Shown: piece by piece, positions 1,786-8,379 of the stretch
Position numbering within the stretch: the first letter of the stretch is position 1
Layout of the letters: each line of letters opens with the position of its first letter
NCBI GenBank assembly: GCA_012798895.1
Contig: JAAZMI010000112.1
Span: 1 to 36,764, forward strand
DNA length: 36,764 nucleotides
From: Bacillota bacterium
GTDB lineage: Bacteria; Bacillota; Dethiobacteria; DTU022; UBA8154
Direction: 5' to 3'
Program-made: the position numbers and the translations under genes
The notes under the pieces: generated by a model
Told to the model about the DNA's origin: nothing
What the model saw: only the letters and a program-made list of their open reading frames with translations
Databases searched by the model: none

Positions 1786-1802
1786 ACTAACCGGTCGGTA
1801 GA
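1786..1802. promoter_or_regulatory. Candidate TetR-type operator (ACTAACCGGTCGGTAGA)
   Basis: Partial dyad ACCG-GT-CGGT (1790-1799) with flanking CTA/TAG, about 12 nt downstream of the -10 box of the operon that ends in a tetR gene. Confidence 0.35.
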
Positions 1803-1913: not shown

Positions 1914-2918
1914 ATGCGATTGTTGGAATTTGATTATTTTGAACCGAGAAATTTGGAAGATGCAGTTACCAAAGTAAGGGAATTTGATGGCAACTACCAG
2001 ATTATTGCCGGGGGAACGGATCTGCTGACAGCCTTAAAGCAGAGGTTATCCGCCCCGGCCGGCCTGGTCAGTCTCGATCATATCTCATCTTTAAAGGATA
2101 TCTGGGAAGAAGATGACGTGATTACTATTGGTGCGATGTGTACTCTGGAGGATGTTCTTAGTTCGAGCTTGATTGCGGAGAAACTCCCGGCACTAAATCA
2201 GGCGGCCTGGGATGTTGGCTCTCCGCTTTTGCGCCCCTTGGCTACGATCGGTGGGAATATCTGCCTAAATACGCGTTGCCGTTTCTACAATCAGTCTTCG
2301 TTCTGGCGCTCTTCGCGGGATACGTGTTATAAGGCCGGGGGCAATATCTGCCACGTTACCAATAAGCGGGATAGCTGTGTGGCGACTTTCTCTGCCGATA
2401 TCCCGCCAGTTTTAATTGCTCACGGTGCCAGGGTTAGGCTGGCCGGCCCCAAAGGGGTAAGAACGCTCCCTCTGGAACAATTTTATACCGCTGACGGCCG
2501 TTTTCCGCACGTTATTATGGCGGGCAGCGGGGAGATACTGCAGGAGATTGAAGTGCCGCTACCGGCACCGCAGGTCAGCTGTGTTTATCATAAATTCAGG
2601 ATGCGGGAATCGATTGATTTTCCGGTACTGGGGGTTGCTGTGATGCTTAAACTGGGCGAAAAAAAATCCGGAAAATATTGTGAGGATGCCTGTCTGGTGA
2701 TCACCGGTGCCGAACCGGCGCCGGTGGAGGCCGTGCAAGCCCGGGAAGAGCTTCTGCACCGAAGGCTGGAACCGGGATTGCTGGCCAGGGTGGCAGAGAT
2801 AGCTGCTTCTGAGATACATCCCATTAAAACATCCCTTATTTCGCCGCGCTACAAGCGGGAAATTGCCAAAATAATTGTAACGGATGCTCTGAAAAAAGCG
2901 GGAGGGATTGAAGAGTAA
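1914..2918 (+). CDS. hcrB: FAD-binding subunit of molybdenum hydroxylase, 4-hydroxybenzoyl-CoA reductase beta-subunit type (extra [4Fe-4S] loop)
   Basis: FAD motifs IAGGTDLL and ATIGGNICLNTRC. Insertion CRFYNQSSFWRSSRDTCYKAGGNICHVTNKRDSC with four cysteines (CX15CX7CX8C). RBS gaggaggg upstream. Confidence 0.82.
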   Translation: MRLLEFDYFEPRNLEDAVTKVREFDGNYQIIAGGTDLLTALKQRLSAPAGLVSLDHISSLKDIWEEDDVITIGAMCTLEDVLSSSLIAEKLPALNQAAWDVGSPLLRPLATIGGNICLNTRCRFYNQSSFWRSSRDTCYKAGGNICHVTNKRDSCVATFSADIPPVLIAHGARVRLAGPKGVRTLPLEQFYTADGRFPHVIMAGSGEILQEIEVPLPAPQVSCVYHKFRMRESIDFPVLGVAVMLKLGEKKSGKYCEDACLVITGAEPAPVEAVQAREELLHRRLEPGLLARVAEIAASEIHPIKTSLISPRYKREIAKIIVTDALKKAGGIEE

Positions 2919-3376
2919 TGGAAAAGACGATCCGGTTAACAGTAAACGGTGAGGAGAAGACCCTCAAGATCGGTGTTCAACAGACGCTTTTAGAGGTGCT
3001 GCGGGAGGATCTGGGGCTGACGGGGACTAAAAAGGGGTGTAACCAGGGAGAGTGTGGGGCCTGCACGGTCCTTTTGGACGGCAAGCCGGTCAGCTCTTGT
3101 CTGCTTTTGGCGGTCAAGGCTGACGGGAAAACGGTGTTAACGATAGAAGGGCTGGCGCAGGCCGGGGAGCTGCATCCCATGCAGCAGGCTTTTAATGAAA
3201 AAGGGGCTATTCAGTGTGGTTTTTGTTCGCCGGGGATGATTTTGGTAGCAAAGAGCTTGCTGGAACGAAACCCCAACCCGTCAACACAAGAGATTAAGGA
3301 GGCGATCGCCGGAAACATCTGCCGTTGTACCGGTTACCTGCAGATTATAGAGGCGATCCGCTCGTTTGTTTCTTAA
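2918..3376 (+). CDS. hcrC: [2Fe-2S] subunit of molybdenum hydroxylase (4-hydroxybenzoyl-CoA reductase gamma-subunit type)
   Basis: 152 aa. Plant-type cluster CNQGECGACTVLLDG and second cluster CGFCSPGM...CRCTGY. Translationally overlaps the preceding gene (shared base 2918). Confidence 0.85.
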   Translation: MEKTIRLTVNGEEKTLKIGVQQTLLEVLREDLGLTGTKKGCNQGECGACTVLLDGKPVSSCLLLAVKADGKTVLTIEGLAQAGELHPMQQAFNEKGAIQCGFCSPGMILVAKSLLERNPNPSTQEIKEAIAGNICRCTGYLQIIEAIRSFVS

Positions 3377-3461
3377 CCGGGTTCTAAAGCTCTACAAGGT
3401 TTAGCCGCAGACAACCGGGTTTGCTGTTCACAAATTATCAAAGTGCAGGTGATGTTTTCTT

Positions 3462-5843
3462 ATGAACGATTATAATTACATTGGTAAAGAAATCCCGCGG
3501 GTCGACGGGCCGGCCAAGGCTACGGGCCAGGCCGTCTACACGGTCGATGTCAAGTTGCCGGAGATGCTTTATGGTAAGATACTGCGCAGCCCGCATCCAC
3601 ATGCGAGGCTGCTTAAGGTGGATACCAGCGCTGCAGAGCAGTTGCCGGGTGTAGAGGCTGTAATTACTGGTGAAGATCTGCAAGAAGTGCGCTATGCTTT
3701 TGTCGATACACCCCGCTACCCTGCGGATGAACAACCGCTGGCTACAGAGAAGGTAAGGTACATCGGGGATGAAGTGGCGGCGGTAGCCGCTGAAAGCGAA
3801 GCGATCGCCGAAAAGGCGCTATCCTTGATCAAAGTGGAGTATGAAATTCTACCGGCTGTCTTTGATCCCGAAAAAGCAATGCAGGAAGGGGCACCGGTAA
3901 TCCATGGTGAACAATCTGCCAGCACCTCCTTCTGGGAAGATTGGGGAGTCGCTCAACAAAAGAAGACTGTCCAGGAGGATCCCTCCATCAACAATTTAAG
4001 CGGGCACACCTTTGTCAGCTTCGGCGATGTGGAACAGGCTTTCCAAGAGGCGGATTACAGCCGCGAAGATCGTTTCGAGCTGAAACCTACGGCACATTGC
4101 CAGATGGAACCTCATGCTGCCGTAGCCAGCTATAATCCCCTGGAGGATAAGCTGCACGTCTGGTTATCTACGCAGGGCATCTTTCTAAAGAGGCTTTTTT
4201 TGAGCAAGACGCTGGGCCTGCCGGCAAGTAAGATCAGGGTGCATCACAGCTTCGTGGGTGGGGCTTTCGGCGGGAAAATAGATCTCTTCCCTTATGAATT
4301 TTGTGCAGCATATCTCTCCATAAAGACGAGGCGGCCGGTCAAAATCGAACTGGACCGGGAAGAAGTGTTTATGACAACTCGCCAGCGGCACCCGATCATC
4401 GTTAAAATCAAAACAGGGGTAAAAAAAGACGGCACGATCTTGGCCCAGGATATCAGGGTGATCGCCGATAACGGCGGTTACCGGGGGTCCGGCCCGGTGG
4501 TTATCTTCCTCTGCCATGGTTTCAGCTTTCCCGTTTACAATGTGCCCAACTACCGTTATGAAGGATTTTCCATCTATACGAATAACGGTATCCGCGGCCC
4601 GCAGCGCGGCCACGGCGCACCCCAGATCCGTTTTGCCATCGATTCGCATCTGGATCTGATCGCCCGGGATCTGGATCTCGATCTGCTGACGATCATGCAT
4701 AAAAACGTGCGCCAAGAAGGGGATGTCCTTCCGAATGGCGATCGCCTGGACAGTTGCGGTTTGACGGAATGCCTGATGGGGGCTGCCGGGGCCATCGATT
4801 GGCAGAAAAAAAGGGAGCAGAGTCATCTTCAAGCCAACGGCAACCGCTACCGGCGCGGCGTGGGAATCTCTCTTTGTTCCATGTTCAGCGGGGCGATGTA
4901 TTATCCCTTTGCTTCTGCCGCTGTGGTGAAGATGCATGATGATGGCTCGGCGACGCTGTTTACCGGTGCCCAGGATATCGGCCAGGGCAGCTATACGACT
5001 ATGAGCCAGGTTTTGGCCGAAGAGTTGGGTATCGGCATCGAGGATATCTGTGTTGTGGCCGGCGATACGGAACTTTGCCCCATTGATCTGGGGAGCTTTC
5101 TAAGTTGCACGGCTTTAGTTACCGGCAACGCTGTGAAAAAAGCTGCTGCGGACGCCAAGCGCCAGATGTTGGAGAGCGCTGCAGACCTGCTGGGATTGGC
5201 TGATCCCGCAGGCTTAAAAACGCAAAACAAGATGATCTATTTAGAGGATGATCCCCAAAAATCGGTCTCTTTCGCCCAGGCCATCCAGGCCAGTGTTTTA
5301 AAGAGAGATGGCAACCCCATCATCGGCCGGGGTTCTTTTAAGGGCTACCCGCGCACAGAGCGTTACCCCAGCTTGGCCAAAGCCAAGGGGCTCTTTACCG
5401 GGGCTTATGGTTTTGCAGCCCAGGCTGCTGAGGTAGAGGTGGATACCCTTACGGGCCTGGTGAGGCTGGTTAAGGCGGTTACTTTTCACGATTGTGGCTT
5501 CCCCCTGAACAAGACCGTCGTAGAAGGACAGATTCATGGTTGCGTCTCCATGGGAGCGGGGCAAGCCCTCTCAGAGGAGGTGCATCTGGAAAAAGGGCAA
5601 CTGTTCAATCCCTCTTTCCTTCACTATCAGTTGCCTATTGCGCTGGATACCCCGGAATCTGCGGAGGGTCTGGTGGCGACGATCGAGCCCAGCGGCCCCT
5701 TTGGTGCCAAGGAGGTTGGCGAGGGCTGCGTTGCCGGAATTTTGGGGGCCATCGCCAACGCCGTGCACGATGCGATCGGCGTGCGCATCTACAGCCTGCC
5801 CATCACCCCCGAAAAGGTGTTGCGTGCCCTGAAGAAAATATAA
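3462..5843 (+). CDS. hcrA: Molybdopterin-binding subunit of xanthine oxidase-family hydroxylase (4-hydroxybenzoyl-CoA reductase alpha-subunit type)
   Basis: 793 aa. [44 protein letters not shown], and active-site Glu motif [10 protein letters not shown]. Confidence 0.82.
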
Positions 5844-5860
5844 CCGGGAGAAGAGAAGAT

Positions 5861-6448
5861 ATGAGTTTAACCAGGCAGAAAATCATCGACGCCGCGACCA
5901 CCTTATTTAATGAGAAAGGGTACTCCATCACCAGCGTGCAGGATATTGCAGAAAAGCTTAACGTAACCAAGGCCGCTTTGTATTATTATATATCCAGCAA
6001 AGAGGAGATCCTTTATGCCATCTTCGATCAGACTATGACCACGGCAGAAAAACGGTTGGAAAAATTGCTATCAGAGGAGATGACTGTAGAGGAAAAAATC
6101 AGGGGGGTCATCTATAACCACATTATGGCTGTCTTCGATGAAGCTCCACGCATCGCCATTTTTTTTACGGAACAGGCCCATCTACTACCGGAAAATCTGG
6201 CATCTATCCGGAGACGGCAGAGGGACTATGAAGAAAGGGTAGCTGGCGTGATCGGGGAAGGGATGGAGAAAAACATCCTCCGAAAAATAGAAATCCTTCC
6301 TACTGTCTATGCCATACTGGGCATGTGCAACTGGCTGTATCACTGGTACGAACCCACCGGGCGGGTTAAACCGGCAGATTTAGCCGATCTCTATGCCGGG
6401 ATTGTTCTATCCGGGATACTCCGAAAACCTGTAACCGGCTGCCCCTAA
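5861..6448 (+). CDS. TetR/AcrR family transcriptional regulator
   Basis: Internal ATG at 5861 of the 5492-6448 ORF, preceded by RBS gggagaagagaag. N-terminal [48 protein letters not shown]. Confidence 0.88.
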
Positions 6449-6464
6449 GTGCAGCCACGATTTC

Positions 6465-6492
6465 TAGCTGTCAATGTCTTCATTGACAGCTA
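6465..6492. promoter_or_regulatory. Perfect palindrome (12-bp arms, 4-nt spacer) overlapping the -35 box of the rpsU promoter
   Basis: TAGCTGTCAATG-TCTT-CATTGACAGCTA; the right arm contains TTGACA (6483-6488). Confidence 0.75.
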
Positions 6493-6511
6493 AACGGCCA
6501 AAAGGTATAAT
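6483..6511 (+). promoter_or_regulatory. Full-consensus sigma-A promoter upstream of rpsU
   Basis: TTGACA (6483-6488), exactly 17-nt spacer, TATAAT (6506-6511). Confidence 0.8.
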
Positions 6512-6582
6512 AAGTTGAACGGTTTTCCGTCATCCATGGGGCCTTTTTATAGCAGGCTGGGTTGTGAGGGGAGGGAAGCTGA

Positions 6583-6777
6583 TTGTCAAAGGTAAAGGTT
6601 GGTCGAAACGAAAGCTTTGATAGCGCCTTAAGGCGGTTTAAAAGGAAGTGTGCCCGGACAGGCATACTCTCCGAAATACGCAAAAGGGCGCATTACGAAA
6701 AACCAAGCGTCCGTCGCAAAAAGAAATCTGAAAGAGCGCGCAAGGTGCGCAAAAGAGGAAGAAGGTCTTATCGCTAA
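6583..6777 (+). CDS. rpsU: 30S ribosomal protein S21
   Basis: 64 aa. [54 protein letters not shown] is typical S21. TTG start. Confidence 0.93.
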
Positions 6778-6923
6778 CTAAATTCAAAAAATACCGGCAG
6801 GGTCTTTTTCCAATCTATCTGCTGTTAGGGTTTTATCATGATTTCCAGCTTTCCCCCTGAATCTTCGCAGGCAAAGGAAAACCGGGGCATGTAATAAAAA
6901 AAATCAGTTAAAAATGTTACCTT

Positions 6924-6952
6924 AGTAAAACTTGGTGCAACCAAGTTTTACT
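6924..6952. repeat. Perfect inverted repeat (13-bp arms, 3-nt spacer) upstream of nfeD
   Basis: AGTAAAACTTGGT-GCA-ACCAAGTTTTACT. Confidence 0.8.
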
Positions 6953-7005
6953 ATTCTCCATGGGTTCAGATCGTCCCGGTCTGCCCTTACGGAGGTGAAG
7001 AGGCA

Positions 7006-8379
7006 TTGATGCTTTCCAAGATACGACGGTGCAAAAAAGAACACATTTTGCTCTGCCTATTAGTTGCATTTTTTCTTGTTCTTACCTCTGTGCCCGGTGT
7101 ATCTGCCGGTTCTATATCTGCTGCCGCGCCGGTTTATGTCATCCCCGTGAAAGGGGAGATTGAACCGGGGTGGCTGGTTTTCTTTGAACGTTCTCTAGAA
7201 GAAGCCGCAGATGCCGGTGCTGTCTGTGCCATTCTGGAGCTGGATACCCCCGGGGGATATATCGACACGGCTATTAAGGCCCGCAAGCTTATTAATGAAG
7301 CGCCTTTCCCTGTTTATGGTTATGTGCAATATCACTCTCTCTCCGCCGGTGCTTATCTGGCCCTTAGTGCGGAGAAATTTTTTATGGTTCCCGGAGCAAC
7401 TATCGGTGCTGCCGAGCCAAGGCTTATGGGCGGTGAGAAGACTGATGAAAAATATCTGTCTTCCTGGGAAGCTGAGATGCGCGTGGCGGCTGAAAAGCAG
7501 GGTAAGGATCCCCAATTGGCCGCAGCGATGGTGCGCAAAGAGATCGCCATCGAAGATGTGGTTGAAGCGGGAAAACTGTTAACGCTTACCGCTCAAGAGG
7601 CTGAAAAGCTGGGGTTTAGCGATGGAACGGTCGATAAATTATCTACATTGTTGGCCAGACTTGATCTTGAGGGATCCCGTCTTGTTCGGGCAACGCCGAC
7701 ACAGTGGGAGCTCCTCAGCGGGTGGCTGATTAAGCCGGCAGTTGCTACGCTGCTTCTCTCTGCAGCTCTCCTTTTTTTGATCGTGGAAGTGCTTACGGCG
7801 GGCTTTGGTATATCCGGGCTGTTAAGCATACTCTGCTTCGGCCTCTATTTCGGAGGGCATTTTTTCACCGGGATAAGTGGCTGGCCGGCTGTTTTTCTCT
7901 TTGCCTTCGGGCTTGTCCTATTGCTCGTGGAGGCTTTTATACCGGGATTCGGCATCTTCGGGGTCGGGGGGCTAGTCTGTGTCTCTGCCTCCATTGTATT
8001 GACCGCCGCCACCACCGCCCTGGGTTTGAAAATGCTCTTTATTTCTTTTCTGCTCTCTTTTTTAGTCGGGTTTTTTGCTTTTAAGTATTTCCAGCGCAGG
8101 GGTACGCTCAGGCGTTTTATCTTGATGGAGGCCGCTACCAGGGAGAAAGGTTTCAGCTCTTCGACGGATCTATATCATCTGGTGGATAAAGTTGGCCAAA
8201 GTATTACCCCGCTCCGGCCCTCCGGCATCGTAGAGATCGACGATGCTAGGTACGATGTGGTCAGCGAAGGTTCTTACATCTCCACGGGGGCTGCTGTAAA
8301 GGTCATCAAGGTTGAAGGCAGGCGCATAGTGGTGCGCGCTTGCCGTGCCGGCGAAACCGGTGAAGAGGAAAAAAATTGA
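7006..8379 (+). CDS. nfeD: NfeD-family membrane-bound serine protease (ClpP-class long NfeD)
   Basis: Signal peptide, ELDTPGGYIDTAIKARKLI, SLSAGAYLALSAE, several TM segments, C-terminal OB-like NfeD domain. Followed by floA. Confidence 0.9.
   Translation: MMLSKIRRCKKEHILLCLLVAFFLVLTSVPGVSAGSISAAAPVYVIPVKGEIEPGWLVFFERSLEEAADAGAVCAILELDTPGGYIDTAIKARKLINEAPFPVYGYVQYHSLSAGAYLALSAEKFFMVPGATIGAAEPRLMGGEKTDEKYLSSWEAEMRVAAEKQGKDPQLAAAMVRKEIAIEDVVEAGKLLTLTAQEAEKLGFSDGTVDKLSTLLARLDLEGSRLVRATPTQWELLSGWLIKPAVATLLLSAALLFLIVEVLTAGFGISGLLSILCFGLYFGGHFFTGISGWPAVFLFAFGLVLLLVEAFIPGFGIFGVGGLVCVSASIVLTAATTALGLKMLFISFLLSFLVGFFAFKYFQRRGTLRRFILMEAATREKGFSSSTDLYHLVDKVGQSITPLRPSGIVEIDDARYDVVSEGSYISTGAAVKVIKVEGRRIVVRACRAGETGEEEKN

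Follow-up and report, generated by a model that had tools for sequence, protein, structure and literature searches.

The window, that is the whole 36,764-nt stretch of DNA analysed here, carries a cluster of genes for an xdh-type molybdenum hydroxylase which ends in a regulatory gene, tetR, and adjoins rpsU, the gene of ribosomal protein bS21; the features of this region are compiled in Table 1. Between tetR and rpsU, beginning 17 nt past the tetR stop codon, lies a perfect 12-bp inverted repeat, TAGCTGTCAATG-TCTT-CATTGACAGCTA, the arms of which are 100% complementary around a 4-nt loop and predicted to form a stable stem-loop (stem energy −17.3 kcal/mol, 39% GC). Its right arm encloses the −35 element of the rpsU promoter, which, with TTGACA, a 17-nt spacer and TATAAT, matches the sigma-A consensus at 12 of 12 positions, is the only such match within positions 5700-7200, and is separated from the TTG start by 71 nt. 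Both the repeat just 3' of tetR and the full-consensus promoter with its −35 in the right arm had been pointed out in a preliminary description of this DNA, and both stand.

Table 1. Features of the tetR-rpsU region and related elements (positions refer to the window unless a contig is named)
Feature	Position	Strand	Remark
Short copy related to the GGGGACGGTTCTTTTGTG repeat family	44-70
Probable operator of TetR, ACTAACCGGTCGGT	1786..1799	+	directly 3' of the xdh promoter −10
xdh-type molybdenum hydroxylase genes (FAD, [2Fe-2S], Mo subunits)	1914..5843	+	upstream of tetR
tetR (TetR_N + TetR_C_24)	5861..6448	+	last gene of the xdh cluster
Left arm, TAGCTGTCAATG	6465..6476	+	found in the present genome (G000) only
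Loop, TCTT	6477..6480	+	end of homology with the rpsU upstream region of the same-genus genome G001
Right arm, CATTGACAGCTA	6481..6492	+	identical in G001
−35 of the rpsU sigma-A promoter, TTGACA	6483..6488	+	from promoter scan and comparison of rpsU loci
−10 of the rpsU promoter, TATAAT	6506..6511	+	17-nt spacer (6489-6505); conserved context AAAAGGTATAATAAGTTGAA
Extended Shine-Dalgarno sequence of rpsU, GAGGGGAGGGA	6566..6576	+	invariant in 20 family loci
rpsU (bS21)	6583..6777	+	TTG start
Palindrome TAGTAAAACTTGGT-GCA-ACCAAGTTTTACTA	6923-6953		between rpsU and nfeD
GGGGACGGTTCTTTTGTG repeat family	L089 1671-1733; L091 4197-4261, 7966-8028; L094 58-124, 9894-9944

Hairpin statistics were computed on about 199 kb of sequence of the present genome, for which a simple base-composition model predicts ≈ 0.07 perfect stems of at least 12 bp with loops of 3-8 nt; the repeat is thus not a product of chance and calls for an explanation. 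The remaining long perfect palindromes in this sample comprise a repeat family, a terminator and a conserved hairpin ahead of nfeD. The members of the repeat family, long perfect palindromes with GGGGACGGTTCTTTTGTG or a close variant and arms of 22-31 bp, are scattered in the genome. The palindrome between rpsU and nfeD has a core, AAACTTGG...CCAAGTTT, which is single-copy in the present genome; its occurrence after rpsU extends to five or more genera of the family and to one genus of a different family. The arms are constant in sequence, but the CTTGG-CCAAG interval ranges between 4 and 10 nt, a pattern more in keeping with an RNA hairpin than with the operator of a dimer.

The history of the promoter can be followed in related genomes. 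The rpsU gene was located in 90 of 100 of them. Among 30 loci whose upstream DNA was examined, 26 have TTGACA and TATAAT without mismatch, 16-18 nt apart, ahead of rpsU; the four exceptions come from two further families within the order. A perfect-consensus promoter ahead of rpsU is a trait common to this group. In 20 loci of the family the surrounding sequence is conserved as well, with YTTCRTTGACAG, AAAAGGTATAAT, TTGAA and the Shine-Dalgarno sequence in this order, and at the rpsU promoter of G001 the right arm is found exactly. Judged by these loci, the rpsU promoter is an ordinary, strong and old one, conserved among relatives and probably constitutive. A second dyad over the −35 and the spacer, TTGAC-N9-GTCAA, occurs in G001 and in five g2 genomes, is broken in the present genome and is absent from other genera. 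For the rpsU leader RNAalifold gave no conserved structure, and an Rfam search returned four tRNAs and nothing else. A divergent promoter reading from the left arm was considered and discarded, the minus-strand copy of the −35 having CACTTA at a distance of 17 nt and no −10. The extended Shine-Dalgarno sequence of rpsU occurs once in the window; in Flavobacteriales, bS21 ribosomes and an extended rpsU Shine-Dalgarno sequence are linked in gene control (PMC9976891).

The left arm has no such counterparts. Within 60 nt, its best match at the G001 locus covers 6 of 12 positions, and 5-9 of 12 are reached at the other promoter-bearing loci. At up to three mismatches, the palindrome was found at rpsU in none of 99 related genomes, which hold a single match elsewhere, with three mismatches and in an unrelated place. 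Followed leftward from the −35, the present genome and G001 agree through TTCATTGACAG and are unrelated beyond, so that the break in homology falls in the TCTT loop. The preliminary description had named a lack of conservation of the palindrome as an outcome that would count against its own reading, and this holds for the left arm, while the right arm with the promoter is conserved. The gene neighborhood differs, too: a TetR orthologue is lacking in G001 (best E value 8e-7, as compared to 1e-80 to 1e-93 where an orthologue is present), and in searches run without positive control xdhL was not found in G001, nor VanZ in the present genome. In other members of the family rpsU lies apart from xdh and tetR; among the genomes compared they adjoin it only here, and the left arm sits at the junction. 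From this comparison of sequences, the two halves of the hairpin are of different history, the right arm being old promoter and the left arm new.

It has been described that template switching can create perfect hairpins in one step (PMC8794818). The left arm is the reverse complement of the adjacent −35 region and is missing in the sister genome; an inverted duplicate of this kind, made from neighboring DNA in a single step, is the form expected of fold-back template switching. The break in homology, located with one same-genus genome as the sole comparison, falls in the loop. By our own simple estimate, the chance of a perfect 12-mer complement arising near the fixed right arm is about 9 x 4^-12, that is improbable. 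We therefore consider it probable, with some reservation, that the −35 region of a conserved rpsU sigma-A promoter was recently copied in reverse complement, in this lineage only, and that the operator of TetR lies elsewhere. The left arm would date from the event that brought xdh-tetR next to rpsU or from a later time, and its simplest origin would be fold-back template switching in which the strand turned back at the loop. On the DNA this would have altered neither the −35 nor the spacer nor the −10 of the promoter, whereas in the RNA the tetR message would gain a 12-bp stem-loop soon past its stop codon, which may at most trim, stabilize or partly end this message. As the left arm is perfect despite being under no promoter constraint, either the event was recent or the pairing has been maintained. 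The latter, in the form of selection for structure or for a bound dimer, would speak against this reading as a whole, as does the reliance of the comparison on one same-genus genome.

In this context one has to weigh the possibility that the stem-loop has been selected to terminate or insulate the xdh-tetR operon, using the promoter −35 as its 3' arm and sparing rpsU from read-through. The short distance from the tetR stop codon and the stability of the stem agree with such a role, and the tetR orthologue of G005 is directly followed by a 15-bp stem and ATATTTTTG, a canonical terminator, so that the stem at the corresponding place here may have a terminating function, a point which also weighs against the reading as a recent copy. 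On the other hand, there is not one T in the 8 nt past the stem (AACGGCCA), the terminator scan did not list the hairpin, the orthologues of G011 and G016 lack a comparable stem after tetR, and the inverted repeat of G007 lies just ahead of the next gene. The preliminary description had already cautioned that the hairpin lacks a T-tract, and this is borne out on both strands, the sequences that follow being AACGGCCAAA and GAAATCGTGG. As no U-tract adjoins the stem, a canonical intrinsic terminator is rejected, the hairpin is at most a 3'-end stem-loop of the tetR message, and a selected terminator or insulator appears unlikely, if still worth keeping in mind.

A further reading takes the palindrome as the operator of some other repressor, gained in this lineage only. 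Its 28-bp perfect dyad is a plausible site for a dimer, but the 12-mer has no further exact copy in the window, and the genome-wide search suggested in the preliminary description gave no second match to the core at fewer than three mismatches in the 211 contigs; at three mismatches 8 matches per strand face 5 for a reversed-pattern control, which is near control level. We see only a slim chance for this reading, and the same slim chance for the broader proposal that any repressor, be it the xdh-linked TetR or another, occupies the new palindrome and silences rpsU. If true, one template-switch mutation would have turned a −35 element into an operator and placed a ribosomal protein gene under metabolic control.

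The neighboring TetR itself is an even poorer candidate for such a repressor. The preliminary description had envisaged a repressor that occludes sigma-A at the −35, and a dimer of TetR on the palindrome would tie the synthesis of S21 to the substrates of the xdh enzyme; the perfect dyad over the −35, near a promoter and beside the tetR gene, is in line with this. The palindrome is absent, however, from the promoter-bearing relatives, including G005, G007, G011 and G016, whose TetR orthologues, at 64-71% identity, have nearly the same HTH with an unchanged VTKAALYYY helix, and in these four genomes tetR and xdh are unlinked to rpsU. Furthermore, the palindrome is unlike the probable operator at the xdh and paaK-xdh promoters. 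In the present genome GTTACTAACCGGTCGGTAG comes after the xdh promoter (TTGACA...TATAAT), and at the same place after the −10 the paaK-xdh promoter of G007 has ATACTAAACGGTTAGTAA, with the site ACTAAACGGTTAGT. The site of the present genome is single-copy there. At up to one mismatch, the shared motif ACTAAMCGGTYRGT has a single occurrence in the present genome, at the xdh promoter, and none in G001; its sites in G007 and G016 include the tetR contig. As the controls for the other genomes give counts close to the real ones at one mismatch, only promoter-placed sites carry weight. On these grounds ACTAACCGGTCGGT is the probable operator of the xdh-linked TetR, and the analysis yields a testable candidate, while occupation of the palindrome by TetR is rejected by the comparison of orthologous loci and has, in our estimate, very little likelihood.

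A search of the genome_contigs collection with TetR gave only a distant Paenibacillus match, and among its closest solved relatives is the TetR-family structure 3vpr, which we take to be PfmR. In G007 (L067) and G005 (L068) the xdh FAD subunit gene is preceded by a gene whose sequence, judged by eye, resembles phenylacetate-CoA ligase, together with a conserved small ORF of ≈ 70 aa; these neighbors hint that the xdh-type enzyme may act on an aromatic acyl-CoA. The best NCBIfam match of the Mo subunit is 4-hydroxybenzoyl-CoA reductase, below the cut-off. Finally, an assembly or amplification artefact is hardly credible: fold-back chimeras do yield inverted copies and the genome is fragmented, yet arms of just 12 bp are bordered by natural sequence on either side, tetR reaching its normal end and promoter and rpsU being intact.

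Returning to the reading of an old promoter with a recent inverted copy, a palindrome over a promoter that looks like an operator or a terminator can consist of two halves of unequal age, one an ancient promoter and one a recent inverted copy, and symmetry alone is no basis for calling a repressor site. With the template-switch hairpins of Monttinen and Löytynoja (2022, PMC8794818) the present one shares the perfect stem in which one arm is the reverse complement of ancestral sequence next to it; it differs in its place over a promoter at a gene junction and in being seen against one sister genome, with no ancestral reconstruction. An intrinsic terminator likewise has a stem-loop soon past a stop codon, whereas the present hairpin has a GC content of 39% and no U-tract on either strand. 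The consensus sigma-A (sigma-70) housekeeping promoter is recognized in TTGACA, 17 nt and TATAAT, kept upstream of rpsU in the majority of loci; the present locus stands out by its perfect 12/12 match and by the hairpin over the −35. With respect to the PfmR/TTHB023 operator of Thermus thermophilus, for which the consensus TACCGACCGNTNGGTN is taken as quoted in PMC7022988, the palindrome shows no resemblance, while the site at the xdh promoter, TACTAACCGGTCGGTA, matches at all but two of the specified positions.
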